The notes beneath the pieces are model-generated. The model saw only the letters and a program-made list of their open reading frames with translations, had not been told where the DNA came from and did not search any database. Positions 383-21,317 of a DNA stretch of 23,459 nucleotides are shown here, in pieces; positions within the stretch are counted from its first letter, which is position 1, and every line of letters starts with the position of its first letter. The stretch is from assembly GCA_025201865.1 (NCBI GenBank), contig MU602948.1, forward strand, positions 7,580-31,038. The letters run 5' to 3'. This stretch comes from Ramicandelaber brevisporus. Taxonomy: Eukaryota > Kickxellomycota > Ramicandelaberales > Ramicandelaberaceae. Position numbers and translations under genes: made by a program.

Positions 383-2386
383 ATGTCGAGCGTGAAGATC
401 AAGACAGAGCCGACAACAACAGCAACAGCAACAGCAGCAGTCGACGGTGTGCAAGTCAAGCTCGAGCCGAGTCTCTCAGCAGCTGATATCAATTTCGAAC
501 AGCATACTTCAGATATTGACACCAAAGTCGAGTATGACTCAGAGGCTGATATCAAATCCGAGAACGATGATAACAGTGATGATGGAGACACCGATCAGGA
601 CCAAGCATCAGAAGCTCCCAGCAGTCGGCGACAATATATCTGCGAATATCCTGGATGTGGTCGTGGTTTCAAGCACTCCAACCGCCTGGGAACACATCGA
701 CATGAACACAAACTCCAAGTAGAATTCAATATCCTCGGAAAGACGTACATTCTAACACGACATTCGTTAGATGATCGATGGTCATGTACTTTTCCGGATT
801 GTACAACAACACTCAATACAATTGATAGTGTACGTAGCCATTTTCGAAACACTCATAGTGATACTACGGGACAGCATCAACAGTCTTCAGCAAAGAAAAT
901 TCAGCGTACACGCTATTTTGTTGATGTGGATTTCTTTTATGTGAATGGAGTTCGCTGTAGCTATCATACTAAGATTGGAGTGTTCATTTGTCACGTGTGT
1001 AAGCTGGTGCCGGAATGTCTGCTCACACATTTGCAGCAGAGGCATGGATTTGATGAGAAGTCGATTGACAACTCTGTGCTGCCAGAGAGTGCAATAAATG
1101 CAAATGCTGATCCCAGTGTTAATCAGCACACTAACAATCCGCATCTCGCAGCAGCAATTCGCGAACCATACCGGCAGCAACATCAGAATATTGTCCAAGG
1201 CTGGATGTGTGTTACATCTAAGTGTGGCTACTGTGGCCACACAGCTGAAAATAAGAGTGATCACAAGAAAAAGATGCATCGAGGCGAACAATTAACAACT
1301 GTCCCAGCACTGGTACTGCGCCTTGTTTCTGCGAAATCAAGCTCGTGCTATTTTCTCGTTGCTCGGCTGGATACTGCCATCAATAGAGCGAATCAGCACA
1401 GAATCGACTACAGCCACGATGGATTGAACGCTCAAGATGAGAATGGAGTTGATATCGAACAGAATGAGACTGCAGATGTATCCATTCAAAAGCAAAAGTG
1501 GAAATGTGAATATCATGATTGCGAGCGGCTTTTCAACTCAACTTATCAACTTAGTGGGCATCGGCGCGAACACAAACTGGAAGTGGTAGTTACAGTACAA
1601 GGTACGACTTTCACTCTTAGCCGTCAGTCTTTGGAAGATCGATGGTCATGTCCACTTTCAAATTGTAAAGTGATGTGTAAAACAGTTGATAGTACTCGTG
1701 TGCATATTCAGAGAGTCCATAAAGCATTGGTGATTAAAAAACGAGCTAATAGTGAAGACGACAATAGCCAGCAGGTGCAAGTTGTCATGAAGAAACAACG
1801 CATCCTATTTTACTTAAATGTAAATGATATTTATATTGGCGGTACTATATATGGCTATCATACTACAACTAAAGTTTTCATATGTCATATATGCAGGTTG
1901 GTGCCAGACTGCTTACTTACACACTTGAAACAGAAACATGGATTTGATGAAAAGTCGATTGATAATTCGGTTCTGCCGGAGAGCGCCAGGATTAATGGAA
2001 GCGATCCCAATGAAAACCAGCACACCAGCAACTCACATCTTTCAGCAGCAATTCGCAATCCATATCAATGGCGGAATCCAGATATTATTCAAGGTTGGCT
2101 ATGCATTGCAACTGATTGCGGGCATTGTTGTTCCACTAAAGAGACTAGAAATAAACATCAGCGCTTAATGCATAGAGGCAAACAAGAATCGACTGTTCCT
2201 GCTCTTGTACTGCGATTGCTTTGTGGGAAAATACAAACTTCATGCTTTCTCATTACACGGTTGGACACAATCACCAGCAATGTCAACTCAAATAACTCTG
2301 CAAGTCAGCAAGGAAACGAACGTGATGAAGATGATGGCGATGAACTAGTCCTGAGTGACTACAGTGACGACGATGATATCTATTAA
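383..2386 (+). CDS. Tandem C2H2 / OrsD-like zinc-finger protein
   Basis: 667 residues, starting at the first ATG of the frame. An acidic N-terminus (1-80) carries three SUMO-acceptor consensus motifs of the psi-K-x-E type: IKTE 6-9, VKLE 25-28, IKSE 57-60. A module of about 260 residues follows and is then repeated. Copy 1 has a C2H2 finger (C87, C92, H105, H109), a second finger (C135, C140, H153, H158), a C-x2-C/H-x4-H segment (C203, C206, H216, H221) ending in HGFDEKS, and a last Cys/His cluster (C276, C281, H294, H299). Copy 2 begins at C375, with its C-x2-C at C501 and last cluster from C574. The second half of each module resembles the fungal OrsD/DUF3505 domain in Cys/His spacing and in the trailing VPALVLRL strand. 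The C-terminus is acidic. A nuclear DNA- or protein-binding role is inferred; targets are unknown. It converges on the methyltransferase gene. Confidence 0.8.
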   Translation: MSSVKIKTEPTTTATATAAVDGVQVKLEPSLSAADINFEQHTSDIDTKVEYDSEADIKSENDDNSDDGDTDQDQASEAPSSRRQYICEYPGCGRGFKHSNRLGTHRHEHKLQVEFNILGKTYILTRHSLDDRWSCTFPDCTTTLNTIDSVRSHFRNTHSDTTGQHQQSSAKKIQRTRYFVDVDFFYVNGVRCSYHTKIGVFICHVCKLVPECLLTHLQQRHGFDEKSIDNSVLPESAINANADPSVNQHTNNPHLAAAIREPYRQQHQNIVQGWMCVTSKCGYCGHTAENKSDHKKKMHRGEQLTTVPALVLRLVSAKSSSCYFLVARLDTAINRANQHRIDYSHDGLNAQDENGVDIEQNETADVSIQKQKWKCEYHDCERLFNSTYQLSGHRREHKLEVVVTVQGTTFTLSRQSLEDRWSCPLSNCKVMCKTVDSTRVHIQRVHKALVIKKRANSEDDNSQQVQVVMKKQRILFYLNVNDIYIGGTIYGYHTTTKVFICHICRLVPDCLLTHLKQKHGFDEKSIDNSVLPESARINGSDPNENQHTSNSHLSAAIRNPYQWRNPDIIQGWLCIATDCGHCCSTKETRNKHQRLMHRGKQESTVPALVLRLLCGKIQTSCFLITRLDTITSNVNSNNSASQQGNERDEDDGDELVLSDYSDDDDIY

Positions 2387-5613: not shown

Positions 5614-8600
5614 TTAGTTTGGCTGATCGCGGTCCTTGACAAAGCTCTGGATAGACACAGACAGTCTGCGCAGACCCTGCTTAAATCTTGACCCAATGGA
5701 TGGTGTGGTTGGCACTGGAGGCGGCGGTGGCAGGCCGGAGATCTGGGCTGCCAAATTGGTCGTGCTCAATCGAGATGGAGAAGCGGCTGTGGCTGTTGTT
5801 GATACAGAGGTTGGAGTGCGAGCATGACGAATGTGGCCGATAGAAGAAGAGAAATCACCCGTGTCGCCAGGCACAGGCAGTACGTGAGGAGAACATTCGC
5901 CACCAGCTGGAACATGAGATGGGGGTAGAGGTAGCTGCGGAGGTGGATACGTCGCGATGCCGTTCACAAACGGATGAGCCTTGATTTCATCCATGGTAAT
6001 GCGCGTGCGATAGTCAGGATCCATCAAGCGAAGAATGAGGTGTTTGACCTCCAGAGGAATGCCGCCTTCGTTAAGACGGACTGCACCAACCTTGGCAATG
6101 AGCTCATGAGAGACACAGCCAGTCTCATCCTCATCTGGGAAACGTGGCTCGCGACGCGGAATGACACTGAGCAACTCAATTTCTGTATCAGCGAGGAATG
6201 GAACACGACCATAGACAAGGCAGTAGAGAGTCACACCCATTGCCCACAAATCGATGCCTTTACCAACTACATTTGGAGCGACAGATGATGATGATGTGGC
6301 TGACGAAGATGGTGGCATGAAGGGTGGCATAATCTCGGGGAATGTGAGCTGGACTGGCGGGTTGATGATGAGGGGCTCTGGCGGAGGTGGTGGTTGCAGA
6401 ATGGAGGCAACGTAGCTATCAAGGTTCGCTTCACTGATACTCACAGCATCTACAGGGCCAGTAGCAGTGGCCATCGGCACAGGTGGCATTTGAGGGAATG
6501 CGCTCACACCAGAGCTGCCTCCAACATATGTGGATGCATGGCGAATGTGGCGAACACCACTTGCTTGAAGAGGCGGAGAGAGCGAAGTTGGATGCTGGGT
6601 GCCCAAACTAGTCGGTGCGTAAAGAGACCGGCGGTCGCGCTGAGGCGTCAAAGTGTTCGAATGGGTAGCCTGGCTGAGAGTCAACGAACCCATGCTTGGA
6701 ACCAACCCAGTGAGTCGCTCAGGCTCATAAACAGGTGGCAAAATGGTAGTGGATGGCGTCGTCGGCGCTCGCACCACGTCAACTGTAGTCATTTGGCCTG
6801 AACCAGCGTCGTATTCAAGTGCCGAGTTGGCAAACTGATTTTGTTGCTGCTGAAGACTGTTGATGGTCTCTGAACGTTTGCGGCGTTCTCCAAACAGCAG
6901 CGCAGTGATGGATGGACGACGACTGCTCTTCTTTGACTTGATGCTCTCTGCATGACTGGGTGAAAGGGGAGGTTGAATCTGCTGCTGCTGCTGTTGCTGT
7001 TGCATCAATGTGGTAGAAACTCCAGAAGCAGCGCTGACTATTGAGACAGACGAGCGATTACCAAAAAGTGCAGGGAAGATTCCACGCGGCGTAGCTGGCG
7101 ACAGAGTCGATGGTGGTCTGCCACCTTGCTGCTGCTGTTGCAGTTGCAGTTGAGAGTTCTGAGCAGTCTGGATCGGGTGAGGTGGTTGCGGTGGTGGAAC
7201 AGATACCATGATCTTGATGGCGAGCGGGGCACGGTGGATGCGAGAAGCCAGGATGGACGATAAATCCGCAGCAGTAGCGCACTGCTCAGGAGCAAAGAAC
7301 GCCGGAGTACCAACCGTACGAGCCAACTCACGCTCATCAGCTTCTAGCATCTGCTGTTGCATTGCTTGATGACGCCGGCTACGAGATTGCTGCTTCGTCA
7401 ATTGGACTTCGTGAGGGTGCACATCATCACCTGGTGAAAACACTTCGTCAATGGCGGTAATATCCAGCGAGGGTCGTGCGCTGTACTGCTGAGCCAAGTG
7501 GAATGTACGCTGACCATAGCCGCGAGTTGTGGTTGAAGCTGAGGAAGGAACATCGCTGTCGCTGTCGCTTTGATCTGCTAGATGGATATTGCCGCTGCTG
7601 CCAACTGCATCGAGCTCAGTGATTGGAACAGCGCCTGCTCTATGAGAGTCATCTTCACTGCCACTGCTTTCCGATGTAATAGCACCTCCGCCAATCACAC
7701 GCAGTCCAAGTTGTGGCGTTCGACGTCCACCACCACCGCCACCACCACTACCACTAATAACACCTCCAGTGCTGGCAGCACCGCCGCTGCGTGAGCTGTG
7801 AAGACTTCTCAAGCTGCGCAAACTTTGGCGACTGCGAGTTGAGCGGATGCTGTGGGATCGAGCGCTGGCTACAGAAACTGCCTGAAGCTGATGCGAAATG
7901 GACTGAGTCGGCACTCGACGCAGAGAAGATGATGAAGGAAGCAGTGGACCACTTTCATGATGGAATGGACGGGGAAGATCAAGTGATTGCCGAGCTGATA
8001 CTGGCGCTCCGCTAACACCACTGCCTCCACCACCGCCGCCACCAAAGAAGAAAGCACCTTGATCCATCGTCTCTTCATCATCGCCAGCATAGTCTGTAAC
8101 AATTACATTATTATTTTGCTGATGGGATTCCTCGTCGCTGCTTGAAGATGGCTGCGGATGCACCATAGATGGCTGAACCATGTCTTCAAAGTATTCGTCG
8201 CTGTCTGTGCTGTCAAATGGCTCATATTCATCCTTAGTATCTGGTTGAGCAGCCAAGCTCTGGTTGGTTGAAGTTCGTACAGGCGAAGCCAGGAGAGATC
8301 GCATTTCTTCAACAGTGACGCTGCGGGCACTTTGGAAGCTGGCTCGACCAACACTGCCTCCATTGCTCTGAGAGCCTTCGTCGAGCATAACAGGCGAAAC
8401 TGCAAATCCAGCTGAAGACGACTGATGCGATAACCGAGATGTAACTGGTTGTTGATGTTGCTGAGAATGATGCTGATGTGAGAATGAGGGTCTGTTACTC
8501 ACACTACCGCTGCCTATCGAACTGTTGCTGCCGCCACCGCCGCCACCGCTGTTGATGAAACCCGATGTGGCAATAGAAGGGGGAGTCGGCAACTGCGTCG

Positions 8601-11157
8601 ATCGGAGCGCACCAATGGAACGGACGGATGCTGCCGTCATTGGAGCTGGAGAAATTGGACTTCCAACAATGCTGGAGGGAACCATTACTGCCGGAGAGCT
8701 GCCTGATGAAGAAGCCAGCTCAGTGACATTGGATGCGGCTGCTGGCTGAATGAGATCGGTGGCTCGCACAGATGAGAGTGACAGTAGAGATGGCTTCCTA
8801 AGAGGAGACGGGCCAGCTGAGTTTGCAGCGTTGACCGATCCAGACACGGGTAATGCGTGAGATGATGGGCGGCGCTGAATGGGCTGATGAGGCATTTGGT
8901 GCTGTAGTAAGTGGATATGGTGAGAATGATGGTGGTGTGGATGAGAATGACTGCCCGCAGCATTGCCACTCATTGAACCACTCGAGTCAATTCGTCTCAT
9001 TGCAGTGGTGTTATTGTGGTTACTAGTGCCGGAATCAAGTGAGCCCACAAGAGTGCCGCTATCAATGTTGCTCAATACTGGGCTGCGTGAGGAAGCTGGT
9101 CTCAGCAGCCGCTGTTGAGAGCGAGCACGAGCCAATCGAGATCCGGCAACTGAGATGGCGGCTGGCATTGTGGATGGACTTGGTGAATCAGATGCGATCG
9201 AAACGGGTGGTGTGGTTTGATCTTCAGGAACGCTGGCCATCATATTGGATGCCATTGCAAGTCTCATTGAACCAGATGATGCTGACCGGAGAGGAGGCTC
9301 TGGACGCAATCTACGTGCTGCAATGCTATCAATGGCTGGCAACGTTGGAGATGGGGTTGCACTGGAGTGGGTAATGGCTGCTCCATGCTGAGTCGGTGAG
9401 ATGCCAAGATCTTGACCGCGCTGAAGGGCAGACCGCGCAAGTGGCATTTGGCGAGCAGAAGATGAATGAATAAGAGTGGCTGATACTGAATGCGGGCTAT
9501 GAGGGCTGTTCAGATTAGAGTCATCACCGAAGGAAGTGTGGACAACTGCAGGAGACTCAGTTCTAGCCCGTCGTAGACCAGGAGTAGTTGCGGCCGATAT
9601 CACCATTGAGTCTAGACCATCTGAGCCATCTGTCAAGCCAGAATTCTGCTGCTGTTGCTGTTGCTGTTGTTGTTGCTGAAGAATTGCGCGTGATTCCAAG
9701 ATTGATTGACGCACTAATTTTCTCGGAATGAATGATACTCCAAAGTCTGATATCTTAACAGTGCCATCAACTGTGCATAGTAAATTTGCGGGTTTGATGT
9801 CACGATGGATAATGCCTTGACTATGCAGAAATTCAATTCCACGAGCCAATCCAATGAAGATGTGTCGAACGCTCGCCATCGGCAGCACTGGCTCATACTC
9901 TGATGCTGCACTGGTTGCACTTTGGCCGTGAATATCGTTATCATTGTCACTGTCATTATAATTATCATCATCAATGTTGTAGATACCGCTTGCATCGATT
10001 GATCGGCGTGATTGTTGCTCAACTTGGGCTCGCTGTTGTCTCCATACAATGTCTCTGCCATCGACATATTCCATTACCAGATATAATCTTCTTGCAGTTG
10101 GATCATCGATAACTTCAATCAGCCTCACAATATTGGGATGATCGCATCTTTTGAGGATTGCAATTTCTCTGCGTAATTTATCAATGTGATCGTAATCAAC
10201 TCGTGGATGGAAATATTGTGATTTGTGATGACTTGATGCTAGCAATCGATGTCCAGATTCTCTGATAATCAACGACTCACCACCACCGCCATTCAATGCA
10301 TAATTTCCGCTTCGCTGGCTATCTATACTGCTTCGAGGACTATCTCCTCCGTCAATGGCCATTCCGCCACCACCACCACCACCACCACCAAATGCAGCGG
10401 AGGATGGACCCAGTAATCTTCTCCTTGCTGGCATTTTGGATCTAGCCGAGCCACCCGCACTTCCAGTTCCACTTCCACCAAATAGAGAAGGAGTGGCGCC
10501 AGTTGCCAACTTTCTTCTGGCTGGAATCTTCTCAATGATTTTGATTGCTACCAAGTGGCGAGTCTCTGCTTGCTGAACAGCCTCTGAAACGCCACCACCA
10601 CCACCACCACCACTGCCACTTTGATCATCTCCACTGCCATCAATGCCAGTATCAGACTGATCAACGGGTAGAGTTTCATAGGCTAACTTGACTTTACCAT
10701 AGCTTCCTCGTCCAATCTCTTTGATCAGTGTGTACTGGTTTATTCTCTTTTGTCCCGTAACTGGATGAAAGGAAAGCGTCATTGTTGCAGTTTCTTTGAC
10801 TAACGATTGAGAGGAATGACTTTGACTCTGTTGATTTGTTCCGTTCACATTGCCAATCACCGCTGCCTGAGTAGATGATGAAGCCATCGATGATGTTGCA
10901 GATACTGGAATGTTGTAAGGATTCCCGTCATAAACATTGCTACTTCTTTGCTGTTGTTGTAATAAATGACTGTTGGATGATAGTGATCGATGTGAACCAA
11001 CACCTCCGCCGCCACTGCTGCTCTCATAAGTATTGTTGGAGCTGATGCGCTCGCATTCATGTGCTGTTTGATGTTGCTGTTGTTGTCGCTGTTGCTGTAG
11101 TTGCTGAAGAGAAGTATGATCGCGTTCGCGATCTGCCAGATCGCCGCCTTGTGGCAT
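5614..11157 (-). CDS. CaMKK/Sak1-like protein kinase with giant insertions
   Basis: 1847 residues from the ATG at 11157; the open frame continues to 11295 but only through a TTG. The kinase motifs are complete and Sak1/Tos3/Ssp1/CaMKK-like: Gly loop GRGSYGKV (from G149), VAIK lysine K206, alpha-C glutamate E331, HRDIKPAN with catalytic D453, DFG D471, [11 protein letters not shown] with E1291, [15 protein letters not shown] with D1636, and the subdomain XI arginine R1717. This family phosphorylates the T-loop of Snf1/AMPK-type kinases. The spacing is extraordinary: 125 residues from K206 to E331, 820 from DFG to APE, and 345 from APE to DLW, where typical kinases have about 15-20, 20-40 and about 20. 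The inserts are rich in Ser, Gln, Gly and His, with (CAG/CAA)n runs. A basic amphipathic tail (F1825, L1829, V1834) could bind calmodulin, as in CaMKKs, but this is inference. The CT-rich leader and 3' UTR are unusual. Confidence 0.85.
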
Positions 11158-14459: not shown

Positions 14460-16004
14460 ATGCCGGTGACAGCCTCAACAAACAAGTCAGATAAACCATC
14501 GATCTCTGCCGCTCCAGTCAAACCAGGCACATTTGATCCCGTCAAGCATTGGCACCCACGCGCGTTCAATGCACAGATGCATCCAACTGTTGCAGCGTTC
14601 TTTTCACTGAGCAACGAGCGTATCGTTCAGCGCTATACGCACCTGAACCCACATGTCGATGCCAACAAGCTGCGTACACTGCTCAGTTACAAACCAACAC
14701 ACTTTCGCTGGGCAGGTAGCGACCTCTTTAACGTGAATACGATGGATGGCAAGCGACAGATGGTTCTGATTGAAATGAACTCGTGTCCTAATGGGCTATG
14801 GAAGGTGCCACGTCAGCAGCAGAAGCAGGAGGAGGCTCGTTCATTACCAGTAAGTCTGAATCCATATCACGTCTTGCTGAAGACGCTGCTTGGTGAATTG
14901 TCAGATTTTGAAACTGAAATTGATGGAGACTGGGCTGTGATTTATGAGAATGACTCGATAGAAGGATCTGGATACGCCGCTACATTGGCAGATTTGAGCG
15001 GTGAAAGTGTTTGGCTAGCTCAGTACCGTGAAGCTGATCCAGATCCACCATGCAAATGGGATGACGATGGTATTATGTATGTTCGGGATGCCGAAGGTGT
15101 GTGGCATCCAATCCGTGCCTGTTTCCGATACGTTAGTCTGTGTCCGTGGCGTCGTATCCCAATAACCACACGCACCCGTGTCGTCAATTCAATGGTGCCG
15201 TGCCTCGCCGGTGGATATAACAAGGCACTGGCCAGCAAGGCGTACACACAGTTCAATGACGAACACGATATCCAGTCGAGTGGATTGCAAATCAACTTTC
15301 CATACACAATCACTGACGTTGAGAAGGAACAAGTTCCACAGCTGGTCCGCGATATGGGTGGTCACGCTGTGATCAAGATTCCGTGTGGTCATTCTGGCAA
15401 AGGTGTCTACACCATTACAAACGAGATGGAGCTGGCTGATTTCATGGCAGAGGAGCACTACTACGGCAAGTTTATCGCGCAGTCATTGATCGGTGGCGCG
15501 GGATGGTCATCACAAACCAGCAAGGGTAAGTTCTTTCACGCTGGGACGATGCCCGACCAGAACGGTGACAAATACGTTTACGACGTGCGGATGATTGTGG
15601 CGAGTGACGATTGTGGTTTCCGGCCAACATCCTTGTTTGCTCGACGTGCTCGCAAGCCGCTTTCCAATGATCTTTCTGATACCACTGCTGACGGATCATC
15701 GTCATGGGAGATACTCGGCACAAACATCTCCAGCATAAATCCAATTGACGGATCACGAACTGTTGATGACCATCGTGTCATCGTGATGGATATAGATGGA
15801 TTTGACACACTGGGTCTCGGAATGGACGACTTGATTGATGGGTACATTCAAACTGTGCTTGCTACCATTGCGATTGATCGAGTGTCTCTTCAGCTCCAGC
15901 CGGCCGGCAGTGATTCGTTTGATCTGGAGAAGTTTCAAGAAATGAATCCAGATCCGGCTCTGATTGCAGAGCTCAAGATGCAGTTGAATAAGAATAATCA
16001 TTAA
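14460..16004 (+). CDS. ATP-grasp-like protein of unknown substrate
   Basis: 514 residues from ATG 14460. A Lys plus glycine-rich loop, VIKIPCGHSGKGVYTI (V304, K306, G313-G315), looks like the nucleotide-binding loop of ATP-grasp ligases. It is followed by KFIAQSLIGGAGWSSQ and by YVYDVRMIV (D375, R377), which fits the ATP-grasp strand that binds Mg-ATP. The segment LIEMNSCPNGLWKVP (E105, N107) looks like the E-x-N metal motif but lies N-terminal to the loop. SLCPWRRIPITTRTRV and VVNSMVPCLAGGYNK lie between them. ATP-grasp enzymes join a carboxylate to an amine or thiol via an acyl-phosphate; the substrate here is not known. No signal peptide or membrane segment is seen, so it is probably cytosolic. 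It could instead be a catalytically idle relative. Confidence 0.55.
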   Translation: MPVTASTNKSDKPSISAAPVKPGTFDPVKHWHPRAFNAQMHPTVAAFFSLSNERIVQRYTHLNPHVDANKLRTLLSYKPTHFRWAGSDLFNVNTMDGKRQMVLIEMNSCPNGLWKVPRQQQKQEEARSLPVSLNPYHVLLKTLLGELSDFETEIDGDWAVIYENDSIEGSGYAATLADLSGESVWLAQYREADPDPPCKWDDDGIMYVRDAEGVWHPIRACFRYVSLCPWRRIPITTRTRVVNSMVPCLAGGYNKALASKAYTQFNDEHDIQSSGLQINFPYTITDVEKEQVPQLVRDMGGHAVIKIPCGHSGKGVYTITNEMELADFMAEEHYYGKFIAQSLIGGAGWSSQTSKGKFFHAGTMPDQNGDKYVYDVRMIVASDDCGFRPTSLFARRARKPLSNDLSDTTADGSSSWEILGTNISSINPIDGSRTVDDHRVIVMDIDGFDTLGLGMDDLIDGYIQTVLATIAIDRVSLQLQPAGSDSFDLEKFQEMNPDPALIAELKMQLNKNNH

Positions 16005-16181
16005 GTCATTAATAGTTAAAGTCTATTGCTTTAGGTGTATCGATGGTGATAAAGTCTACTGCAGAGACAGCTGTATAGCTTGTAGACTCAATACTTGATA
16101 CATATCCACATGCTTTCGAATGCTGATTGATTCAATGTCATCCACAACAACCAGATAAACAAACAAAAGAAACTATCAAGA

Positions 16182-19103
16182 ATGACAACACAGCCGCTAC
16201 TACTACCGGATCGTGCAAACGAGCGCTTCCATCACGGCGACAACGACGCTATAGCAGCGATCTTTCAAGCCGACGACAGACTGCACACTCTCGGGCTGCA
16301 GAACCTCGATCATCCCTCACTTCAGCACAGCCTTCGTTCACTTGAAGAAGCCAGCAATCTCTCAAAAGTCTTTTCTCTACAAACTGTACACTTACCCAAT
16401 GTCAGCACAACATCACTTCCACAGCCGCTGCTCTTGCCTACCTTGTCAGGTGTGCCTGTTGGATTGCGCATTCCAGGCAAACGTCCAGCTCCTGCTCAAT
16501 ATGACCATGATTCAACCGAGCAACCACAGCAACCAGTGGCAGAGACTACTCAACTTTCACCTCAGCAACAGCAACAGCAACGGCAGCAGCAGCAATCAAT
16601 ATTCGATGTCGCACTAGAACAGCCTGCACCAAAGAAACAGATTATTGAATGGGACCGCATTCATTCACATACATCGGATGGTTTACAGGATTCAGTTCGC
16701 ACTATTTTCGTGTCAGAGCAAGGAGCAGCTGCATTTGACAAGCTCTACAAACGCACATATGAAGACGAGTTCAGCGCATTTGTCACATCATCAGCCTTTG
16801 ACAATGCATCAGTACGCGATGAACCTCATCTCATTCACTGCATCTCACAGCTATTACTTGGCTCTCCATCAGATGTATTTAGATTGGTGCAGCATGAAGA
16901 GACGGCACAGCCCCTATTTGTACTGAACGATGTCTACACAGAGCTGCGAGTAACTGACGTGTCTAGAGGCAGTTTACAGCAATGCATAGAGTCGTTTTTA
17001 GACTGTGGTACTCATGTCGTTCGGCTTGAAAATGTTGTGGCTACTGTGCGCGACAATCCCGCCGTGTTTGGCTCTACTGGATTATCATTTGCTGCAGCAT
17101 TGGGCGATGTTCTGCAGTATGTACGTGGAGAGTACATCAACATGGTGGATGAGGAGCACGGATTCACACTGGGTGAGGCAATACCTGACCATCCTGCCAA
17201 AGATCCAGCCACCATCTTGCCTCCCTCAGCCATGCGATTGAGCCAAATCATTGGGCCAATGAAACAGCTGCTCGAGCGACTGGCTTTGCTGTGCTGTTGC
17301 GATGCTGGTGGCATTGGCATTGCGGCGTGCTCATCTTCGGAAGCAAGTCTGTTATTTAGAGAGTTTGGCTTTGTGGTGTTCAAAGGTGCAAAACAGCTGG
17401 CAATCCTTTCAGATGTATTGACAATAATGTGCAATGTTGACGTCGAAATGCCTTTGGTTGTGAATGCTATCAAATACTTGCTTGAGCGTACTAGCGAACC
17501 TCTCATCAGCTGGATCAATGGACTGATTGGCAATGGCAATGGCACTGCCTGCATAAATGACGATCCATATCACGAGTTCTTTGTGAGTGAGCGATTGTTG
17601 GCAAATGGTAATGTGACACTGGACTTTGCCGCCACTAACTTGCCACTTCGATACGTGGATATTGACTTTGCGAGGGAGTTGATCATGTCGAGTGAGTGGG
17701 CACGATTGCTGCATATGCGGCACGCGCTAGCTCAGGAATCGACGCTATCCGTTACATCGCCGGCAACCACTGCAAAGAGTCTGTTTACTCAACCAGCAGT
17801 GGCGTTGATGAATTACGATTTTGACAATGCGATACTGATTGATGATAATACAGGCACTAATAATGCATTTGCCCAGTATATCGAAAGCAACATCACTGAT
17901 GCTACTCGGCTACCATCTCGCTGGACCATCTTCGACGTATCTCCAGCGGCCATCGAGAGTAGCATCTCTCGAATGCGCCAAATCCGTGAAGACATGCTGG
18001 CTTGGACTCTGGATGAGATGCGACTTGCTGATTTTATCGAGCTGGTGTGTTCAACGATTCTGCTACAAAATGGCACGTTTGCTCAGAAACTTGTTGACAT
18101 TTTGTTTGCCAGCACACGGCGTGGTCGTCCAACCGCATCATCAGCTGCTTCGTGGTCAGTCGAGTCTGGTGGATTGGTATTGATTGATGGTGGCATAGCT
18201 GAGCTCCGCTCCACTCTTGGCGAACTCATTGACCAAGTCATCAATAACTGGCGCAGACATCAACCGCAGCAATTGACATGCTCAGCATCATTGCTCGTTT
18301 CTGAAGAGGACATTGCGCGGCTGAAGCGGTCTCATGACGCTAACACTTTGCAGTCATGCAAGTTTGACTTTGTGCGATTCGACTTTACTTTGCCTGTGCC
18401 TATCAACGCTGTCGTCGATCCCAGCGTGTTATCCAAGCTCAACTCTGTTCTTCAGTTAATGTTGCGCTTGGAGCGCACAAACCGTTTGCTGAATGATGGA
18501 TTTCTGGCACTGCTCAAGATTCAGCGTGGCGCTGGCAATGCGGAATGCAAGTCTGCTTCTATTTTACACACCAAGATGCGTCACATCCTGGCTTCATTGC
18601 AGTCGTTTGTTTCCAACAATGTAGTCCACACAGCCCATAGTCGGCTATTGTCTGTGATTCGTAATGTTGACAGTGCTCGCGCTCATGGCATCACATCATT
18701 CTCACACGTCAAGGACCTGATCAGCGTGTATGCCACGGTACTGGCTCAACGCGCGTTCACACAGAGCAGAACGGTGTGCGACACGATTGCTGCCCTGCTC
18801 GAGTCAATGTGCGTGTTTGTACGATATGTGCGCATGCAGACATCGGCTGCTGAAGTGATCGACAAGGAGCGCATTGATGAGATTGGCAAGCAGCTCGATG
18901 ACCACGTACATCGGCTGATGCTTTTGATTGGTCAGTATTCGTCGTCGTCGCGTGATGATTGCCTTATTGCTACTGCTACTGCTGCTACTGTAGATTCTGT
19001 GGATACGAAATGGGCAGCAGTGCTGTTAACGGGCAACACAACAGTTGACGACTCTGCGCAGGAGCTCCTCTTCATGCTCGCACAACCGGTAGCTAAGAAA
19101 TAA
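16182..19103 (+). CDS. Gamma-tubulin complex component (Spc97/Spc98 family)
   Basis: 973 residues from ATG 16182. The N-terminus (1-150) is low in complexity with a glutamine run at about 127-140. The family core includes LLERTSEPLISWINGLIGNG and then DDPYHEFFVSE (D461), the classic GRIP1 signature (..EPYL..L..W...G...DPY.EF.V.E). The GRIP2 part includes FDFTLPVPINAVVDPSVLSKLNSVLQLMLRLERTNRLL, the gamma-tubulin-binding region pattern, and helical segments to the end. Gamma-tubulin complexes nucleate microtubules at spindle pole bodies. The length and divergence suggest a GCP4/GCP5/GCP6-type accessory subunit rather than GCP2 or GCP3; the exact class cannot be settled by eye. It lies 177 bp after the ATP-grasp gene on the same strand. 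Confidence 0.7.
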   Translation: MTTQPLLLPDRANERFHHGDNDAIAAIFQADDRLHTLGLQNLDHPSLQHSLRSLEEASNLSKVFSLQTVHLPNVSTTSLPQPLLLPTLSGVPVGLRIPGKRPAPAQYDHDSTEQPQQPVAETTQLSPQQQQQQRQQQQSIFDVALEQPAPKKQIIEWDRIHSHTSDGLQDSVRTIFVSEQGAAAFDKLYKRTYEDEFSAFVTSSAFDNASVRDEPHLIHCISQLLLGSPSDVFRLVQHEETAQPLFVLNDVYTELRVTDVSRGSLQQCIESFLDCGTHVVRLENVVATVRDNPAVFGSTGLSFAAALGDVLQYVRGEYINMVDEEHGFTLGEAIPDHPAKDPATILPPSAMRLSQIIGPMKQLLERLALLCCCDAGGIGIAACSSSEASLLFREFGFVVFKGAKQLAILSDVLTIMCNVDVEMPLVVNAIKYLLERTSEPLISWINGLIGNGNGTACINDDPYHEFFVSERLLANGNVTLDFAATNLPLRYVDIDFARELIMSSEWARLLHMRHALAQESTLSVTSPATTAKSLFTQPAVALMNYDFDNAILIDDNTGTNNAFAQYIESNITDATRLPSRWTIFDVSPAAIESSISRMRQIREDMLAWTLDEMRLADFIELVCSTILLQNGTFAQKLVDILFASTRRGRPTASSAASWSVESGGLVLIDGGIAELRSTLGELIDQVINNWRRHQPQQLTCSASLLVSEEDIARLKRSHDANTLQSCKFDFVRFDFTLPVPINAVVDPSVLSKLNSVLQLMLRLERTNRLLNDGFLALLKIQRGAGNAECKSASILHTKMRHILASLQSFVSNNVVHTAHSRLLSVIRNVDSARAHGITSFSHVKDLISVYATVLAQRAFTQSRTVCDTIAALLESMCVFVRYVRMQTSAAEVIDKERIDEIGKQLDDHVHRLMLLIGQYSSSSRDDCLIATATAATVDSVDTKWAAVLLTGNTTVDDSAQELLFMLAQPVAKK

Positions 19104-20339: not shown

Positions 20340-21317
20340 ATGACTTCGACTGTCGCTGCCACTGCTACCACTGCTGCTACAGCTGCTCATCAGCAAGGAG
20401 AGGAGTGCGGAACTGCGGTGGCCAATACAGCTGCTGCTACTGCTACGGTGGATGACTCCTACGACGACTTTGACACTGGCGACTTGTTCGCTGGAGATGA
20501 CGACCAAAGCTGTCCCGCAACACCAGTTCCGTCACACAGCTTCACTAGCCACACTCGTCTCGACGGTTCAAAGATTCGACTTCGACTGCCAGCTGCTCAT
20601 TCTCTGTGGTCCCATGTGCTTTGGAACGCTGCCCGAGCCTTCTCAGACTACATTGACAGCAATCCAGACACTGTCAAAGACCGAACTGTGCTGGAACTGG
20701 GCTCTGGCTCTGGATTGCCCTCGATCACAGCAGCTCTCAACGGCGCAAAGCGTGTAATTGCAACAGACTATCCTGAAAAGGCTATTCTTGATCACATTCA
20801 GCACAATGTCACAGAAAATAACGTCCAGAGGGCTGTCAATGTTCAAGGATATCTTTGGGGCTCCAATCCTTCGTCATTATTTGAGTCAGCCAGCGCCTCA
20901 TCGTTTGATGTCGTGATCATGTGCGACGTGATCCAGAACCATTCTGAACAAGCCAAGCTGTTCAAGACATGGGGCTCCAATCCTTCGTCATTATTTGAGT
21001 CAGCCAGCGCCTCATCGTTTGATGTCGTGATCATGTGCGACGTGATCCAGAACCATTCTGAACAAGCCAAGCTGTTCAAGACATGCCAGACTTGTCTCAA
21101 GAGACCTGGCGGCGTTGGATACGTCTTCTTTTCTCATCATCGGCCGTGGCTCACCGAAAAGGATATGCGATTCTTTGATGAATATGTACAGGCTGACCAA
21201 GACTTTGCTTGTGAGAAGATTTACGAGCGAAAAATGGCGCCAATGTTTGAGAATGATAGAGGCGATGCTGATGTAAGAGCAACTGTCCACGGATACAGAT
21301 TGACATTTAAGGCATGA
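20340..21317 (+). CDS. EFM7: EFM7/NNT1 eEF1A methyltransferase with internal duplication
   Basis: 325 residues from ATG 20340. The N-terminus (1-60) is Ala/Thr-rich then acidic. EFM7 features include LPAAHSLWSHVLWNAAR (about 83-99), motif I VLELGSGSGLPS (117-128), VIATDYPEK (139-147), QGYLWGSNPSSL, FDVVIMCDVIQNHSEQAKL (motif IV region), VFFSHHRPW and a C-terminus DVRATVHGYRLTF. In yeast this enzyme methylates the N-terminal Gly and an adjacent Lys of eEF1A. Residues 173-210 are repeated exactly as 211-248, so the strand-4/motif-IV segment occurs twice; without it the protein would be 287 residues (yeast 261). The extra strand and helix fall inside the Rossmann fold and might disturb it. Only 53 bp separates its stop from that of the convergent F-box gene. 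Confidence 0.85.
   Translation: MTSTVAATATTAATAAHQQGEECGTAVANTAAATATVDDSYDDFDTGDLFAGDDDQSCPATPVPSHSFTSHTRLDGSKIRLRLPAAHSLWSHVLWNAARAFSDYIDSNPDTVKDRTVLELGSGSGLPSITAALNGAKRVIATDYPEKAILDHIQHNVTENNVQRAVNVQGYLWGSNPSSLFESASASSFDVVIMCDVIQNHSEQAKLFKTWGSNPSSLFESASASSFDVVIMCDVIQNHSEQAKLFKTCQTCLKRPGGVGYVFFSHHRPWLTEKDMRFFDEYVQADQDFACEKIYERKMAPMFENDRGDADVRATVHGYRLTFKA
20857..21084 (+). repeat. Perfect 2 x 114-bp tandem duplication inside EFM7
   Basis: Copy 1 is 20857-20970 and copy 2 is 20971-21084. Reading both base by base I see no difference, including at third codon positions. The period is 38 codons, so the frame is kept. Confidence 0.95.

Follow-up and report, generated by a model that had tools for sequence, protein, structure and literature searches.

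The window analysed here, a stretch of 23,459 nucleotides from Ramicandelaber brevisporus (GenBank contig MU602948.1, contig 267 of a 17.9-Mb, 510-contig assembly), encodes on its minus strand a protein that looks like a CaMKK/Sak1-type kinase and in which the activation segment, between the DFG and APE motifs, is interrupted by an insert of about 800 residues (hereinafter insert 1). Inserts at the homologous position are present in the 35 orthologues retrieved from Kickxellomycota and share with that of the window kinase a single short motif. The reading that we favor, at a probability of about 0.55, is that insert 1 is a translated, disordered tether by which a kinase of the CaMKK/Sak1 type presents a phosphorylatable docking motif.

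The gene consists of 1847 codons, with the frame unbroken from the first ATG at window position 11157 to position 5614, and the Pfam Pkinase match is split into three stretches along it. The DFG aspartate is residue 471 (codon 9747-9745) and the APE glutamate is residue 1291 (codon 7287-7285), that is, the two are 820 residues apart within a single stop-free frame, and our recount thus agrees with the distance given in an earlier, sequence-only reading of this DNA. The clear boundaries and the kinase type proposed in that reading hold as well: the insert is flanked by DFGVSFIP and ELARTVG, and the four top PDB sequence matches of the window kinase are CaMKK2 (three) and CaMKK1 (one), with MARK2 next at a far lower score and no AGC kinase among the best 60. 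The orthologues found in protein searches are labelled CAMKK/ELM, SNF1-activating kinase 1 or upstream kinase of the snf1 complex. The encoded kinase appears to be active, with Lys206, Glu331, the HRD Asp453, Asn458, the DFG Asp471 and the APE Glu1291 all intact. The 798 residues from DFGVSFIP to ELARTVG include 19.3% Ser, 8.9% Ala, 8.8% Gly, 7.3% Pro and 7.1% Gln, and the homopolymers of at least five residues are one run of 11 Gln and three runs of 6-7 Gly. Smaller insertions are seen in the alignment also in the N-lobe and past the hinge.

The relatives of the window kinase were collected in three protein searches, in each of which about 8000 candidates were scored and from which the best 68 of 68, 120 of 1798 and 120 of 4517 matches were taken. 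Removal of two kinase fragments from the same genome (P0186 and P0187) reduced the resulting 270 proteins to 268, and removal of 26 that lack the anchors (the low-scoring P0044-P0068, and P0249) left 242, namely, the window kinase, 35 orthologues from Kickxellomycota and 206 others. In P0249, re-reading showed that DFG is followed by Ile instead of Val and that the activation segment is ordinary; in the distant kinase P0051 the segment is, by eye, somewhat over 100 residues long. The DFG-APE distance is 209-527 residues (median 327) in all 35 retrieved Kickxellomycota orthologues, which come from Coemansia, Linderina, Mycoemilia, Spiromyces, Dimargaris, Dispira and Tieghemiomyces and include P0090, counted here from its list position, in agreement with the core tree; none of the 35 has reverted to a short segment. 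In 205 of the others, the distance is 31-179 residues (median 46). The remaining protein, the Allomyces macrogynus gene model P0070, stayed among the 206 for motif counts, and its distance of 901 was rejected as false, the model spanning several partial kinase copies of which it apparently is a chimera; two other Allomyces proteins give 125. The expansion is absent from lineages such as Syncephalis (70), Basidiobolus (81-84) and Entomophthora (62), and no Harpellales are named among the matches listed. According to the NCBI taxonomy, consulted for these genera only, Mycoemilia, Spiromyces and Tieghemiomyces belong to Kickxellomycota, and Syncephalis and Basidiobolus to other phyla. Thus, the feature is shared throughout the lineage, and the window kinase has its longest version. 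In the core tree of 47 proteins, which holds no other kinase family, it falls within the insert-bearing clade (support 100/99), next to Mycoemilia and Spiromyces (92/79), with its exact place unsure because its branch is the longest in the tree. The simplest history compatible with these sequences is that insert 1 arose once, before Kickxellomycetes and Dimargaritomycetes diverged.

Between relatives, insert 1 does not align, with the exception of one acidic, Ser-rich, double-aromatic motif resembling YDPFDSSDSDEFF. All 36 insert-bearing proteins (the window kinase included) have in their activation segment the pattern [ST][DE]S[DNA][DE][FY][FW], usually following Y-D-P-F-D; none of the 206 others has it, nor is the motif present in any of the 26 anchor-lacking proteins, which were checked separately; at one position, Ala takes the place of the usual Asp or Asn in seven proteins. 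In all 36, the motif lies at 0.57-0.68 of the length of the activation segment. An independent check made use of a profile derived from the motifs of 17 distinct relatives, with the window left out: on the window insert, this profile scores 14.4 at the motif and 1.0 at the runner-up site, and the top score among 2000 shuffles is 8.0. The linkers on the N-terminal and C-terminal sides of the motif scale together, with a ratio of 1.6-2.0 and a correlation of 0.99 (0.97 without the window), and the lengths of insert 1 and of a second insert described below are correlated more loosely (0.66; 0.87 without the window); these values come from eight proteins, the window kinase and one for each of the seven genera, and ignore kinship. 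The sequence-only reading had proposed a tether or phospho-sensor, an idea to which the motif lends substance. The first Ser/Thr of the motif does not qualify as a general CK2 site, the residue at +3 being Ala in seven of the 36 proteins and Asn in three. The 14-3-3 mode-1 consensus is R-x-x-S/T-x-P; a pattern scan detected no such site in insert 1 of the window kinase, and a 14-3-3-like, RxASQP-type site occurs in insert 1 of 21 of the 35 relatives, so a mode-1 site was rejected as the shared function given that the window lacks the pattern. The window sequence aligned opposite the RxASQP(L/V) of the relatives is RARSQQRLL (residues 677-685, window 9103-9129, minus strand).

The disorder that had been presumed from the composition of the insert is also what structure prediction yields for two orthologues. 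AlphaFold2 (AF2) models of the orthologues from Coemansia (P0096) and Tieghemiomyces (P0099), built on shallow alignments of 42 and 31 rows, both show a core folded at high confidence and an insert 1 in which the block means of the predicted local distance difference test (pLDDT) are about 30-50; the whole-model means of 52 and 55 are low because most of the residues are disordered. A CaMKK2-like fold is predicted for the Coemansia orthologue, and the first nine rows of a Foldseek search with this model are all CaMKK2 chains.

The earlier reading did not mention that another 338 residues are inserted between APE and helix F (insert 2; Table 1). A site in this insert, which we take to be PKA-like, consists of basic residues followed by Ser or Thr and Leu, with versions such as KRHSTIVSLL and RRPSLSNLIL in the relatives. 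It is present in the window kinase and in all 35 relatives (33 found automatically; in P0074 and P0082, where the helix-F pattern had not matched, it was recognized on re-reading), compared with one of the 206 others, in most of which the second insert is much shorter. Long second inserts are found in the chytrids, at 155-450 residues in most of the named rows, although that of Boothiomyces has 54. Insert 2 perhaps has a history separate from and wider than that of insert 1 because chytrids also carry long second inserts. In the chytrid proteins P0134, P0142, P0147 and P0151, 300-450 residues separate APE from helix F, and the activation segments are mostly short.

Table 1. Features of the kinase gene in the window, with residue numbers of the encoded protein.
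Feature	Window position	Strand	Basis
Complete kinase gene, CaMKK/Sak1-type by appearance, 1847 residues plus stop	5614..11157	-	open reading frame; Pkinase in three stretches; PDB matches
N-lobe and catalytic loop, residues 139-475	9733..10743	-	catalytic residues; invariant alignment columns
Insert 1, residues 476-1276, activation segment between DFGVS and ELARTVG	7330..9732	-	open reading frame; length comparison
Motif of 13 residues in insert 1, residues 978-990	8188..8226	-	36/36 vs 0/206; profile 14.4 vs shuffle maximum 8.0
P+1 loop and APE motif, 15 residues, 1279-1293	7279..7323	-	sequence reading
Segment right after APE, residues 1292-1307	7237..7284	-	counterpart modelled as helix in two orthologues
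Insert 2, residues 1294-1631, APE to helix F	6265..7278	-	open reading frame; counterparts in relatives
Basic-Ser-Leu site in insert 2, 11 residues, 1413-1423	6889..6921	-	counterpart in 35/35 relatives
C-terminal basic stretch, 14 residues, 1828-1841	5635..5676	-	resembles Dimargaris counterpart by eye

How could such a kinase work? Under the scenario that we favor, the activation segment would have been opened once, before the split of Kickxellomycetes and Dimargaritomycetes, by a disordered loop, translated rather than spliced out, that varies greatly in length but retains the 13-residue motif. The core would fold like CaMKK2, with the loop hanging outside and offering the motif to a partner protein. 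Other kinases, by phosphorylating the serines of the motif and the site in insert 2, would be able to gate either the contact with the partner or the activity of the kinase itself, which, we infer, would act on AMPK/Snf1 as an activating kinase. PKA is described as able to inhibit yeast Sak1 somewhat (PMC10376661), and mammalian CaMKKs as partly inhibited by PKA and 14-3-3 (PMC7700312); these effects provide a precedent within the family for phosphorylation inputs at flexible regions. The same genome encodes 14-3-3 proteins and two AMPK-beta-type domains.

One rival explanation is that insert 1 is mostly an intron included in an erroneous gene model. There are strong-consensus splice donors at residues 293, 886, 1276 and 1572, and three combinations of donor, branchpoint and acceptor keep the frame (293-666, 886-1293 and 1276-1659), but each of these would delete part of the conserved core. 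Furthermore, given the base composition of insert 1, a run of 797 open codons would arise by chance with p = 1.3e-14, the other two forward frames contain 22 and 47 stops, and a likely intron in the same genome, seen as a gap in a 14-3-3 match on contig 51, is only about 100 bases long. A test of synonymous-codon use, with seven other open frames of the window as its training set, favors the reading frame over the two other forward frames (0.113, against -0.001 and -0.039), if weakly: one reverse frame scores 0.099, and the conserved N-lobe itself only 0.003. Because the motif is shared in frame with the relatives, translation of insert 1 in vivo is very likely, and we consider the intron explanation highly improbable. 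A different challenge is that the insert is real but has mostly grown neutrally, by low-complexity expansion of permissive loops in a repeat-prone genome, with only an old, short motif kept. This is the alternative that we take most seriously, unlikely as it seems to us. Several loops of the window kinase bear inserts, which differ in size, and insert 1 contains homopolymers; the branch of this kinase is the longest of the core tree (2.04), so that relaxed constraint is possible. Stretching of the activation segment is not confined to this kinase, which is the extreme: by eye, the Pkinase match is interrupted there by 3459 bases in the window gene, a gap that spans both inserts, and by 1194 bases on contig 108, 444 on contig 10 (where DFG and APE are 167 residues apart) and 264 on contig 73. 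Greatwall in which the insert is replaced by four residues is fully active in vitro (PMC5342071), and Snf1 can be inhibited by glucose without a need for PKA (PMC10376661). The paired scaling of the linkers is also what general low-complexity growth would produce; the motif pattern was derived from the very proteins in which it was counted, many of the 35 relatives are closely related Coemansia, and the segments of the 206 other proteins are short, so that the motif had fewer chances to occur there. All these points weigh against a functional tether. What neutral growth explains less readily is the retention of the 13-residue motif in 36 of 36 proteins and the presence of insert 1 in every one of the retrieved Kickxellomycota orthologues.

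If the motif is indeed a docking element, the question becomes what it docks on. In the FFAT consensus (two phenylalanines in an acidic tract), E-F-F-D-A-x-E comes after an acidic flank, and the phospho form has Ser/Thr at position 4 (PMC7610837); a signal of this kind would tether the kinase, in a phosphorylation-gated manner, to VAP/Scs2 at the endoplasmic reticulum. In the sequences, the two aromatics lie behind an acidic/Ser tract and are mostly followed by Ser/Thr or an acid, as in FFAT: position 1 is E/D and position 2 is F/Y in 36 of 36 proteins, position 3 is F in 32 (W in 4), and position 4 is D/E/S/T in 33, with E-Y-F in the window. The likeness breaks down further on, Ala at position 5 being found in 0 of 36 (Asp in the window) and an acidic residue at position 7 in 17 (Val in the window), whereas position 4 is Pro in 3 and the conserved upstream Y and F fall outside FFAT; moreover, the MSP (VAP) profile gives a single partial match, below the cut-off, in the genome itself. 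We therefore regard an FFAT signal as improbable. Motifs can also fold back on the kinase domain, as TPX2 does on Aurora and the hydrophobic motif on AGC kinases, and the acidic and aromatic make-up of the motif resembles that typical of such docking peptides. The location within the activation segment is compatible with such an intramolecular element, either activating or inhibiting, and residues of the Greatwall insert have been suggested for the role of a hydrophobic motif (PMC5342071). Nevertheless, both AF2 models leave the motif at block pLDDT of 35-40 without secondary structure, which, the alignments being shallow, is weak negative evidence against TPX2-like docking, or any docked element, and against the autoinhibitory element entertained in the earlier reading; we consider fold-back quite improbable. 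An extension of the tether, in which binding through the loop is coupled to the active conformation of the activation loop, so that localization and activity would be switched together by a built-in device that originated independently of the Greatwall insert and is unlike any CaMKK that we found described, is unlikely.

With CaMKK1/2, yeast Sak1, Tos3 and Elm1, and fission yeast Ssp1, the window kinase shares the core sequence and the catalytic residues, and its Coemansia orthologue also the predicted fold; the window kinase differs in having two long, presumably disordered inserts and a DFG-APE distance of 820 residues, compared to 31-179 outside Kickxellomycota. The obvious parallel is Greatwall/MASTL, in which the span between DFG and APE is about 500 residues (PMC5342071), with an insert of 548 residues for the human protein in an alignment (PMC6930252), and in which the role of the insert was still termed open in 2016 (PMC5342071). 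Both kinases have hundreds of residues between DFG and APE, but the window kinase groups by sequence with the CaMKK rather than the AGC kinases, its insert is longer and carries a distinct motif, and another insert follows APE. Hence, this is a known architecture, now in another kinase family. The sequence-only reading knew of no CaMKK-family insert of such size; insert 1 is the longest copy among the insert-bearing proteins, and our literature search, to which subscription papers were mostly inaccessible, turned up no CaMKK-type kinase for which such an insert has been described, but with 209-527 residues between DFG and APE in 35 orthologues the window kinase does not stand alone.

Several other observations were made in the same genome. 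A second CaMKK-like kinase, on contig 17 (L017:1246-3204, minus strand), has an activation segment of 33 residues from D to E. On contig 108 (positions 15838-17514; L009), a kinase-like frame whose HRA and ADFS motifs are degenerate has a gap of about 398 codons in the activation segment. Contigs 344/484, 164/275 and 234/465 carry pairs of kinase matches whose scores are identical, perhaps haplotype or assembly duplicates. In the window itself, a methyltransferase-like frame (20340-21317) contains a perfect tandem duplication of 114 bases, or 38 codons in frame (20856-21085, plus strand), which is either recent or an assembly artefact. A zinc-finger-like frame of 667 residues (383-2386, plus strand), for which no Pfam family scores above the cut-off, consists of two similar halves that, by eye, point to an old internal duplication.

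Of all parts of a kinase, the activation segment would be expected to accommodate hundreds of additional residues least well, and Greatwall is the known exception. That an insert of this kind is also present in an unrelated kinase family, across many related species and with the same short motif throughout, opens a comparative question, in which segments of 209-820 residues surround one fixed motif, and suggests that the Snf1/AMPK pathway of early-diverging fungi receives an input specific to this lineage.

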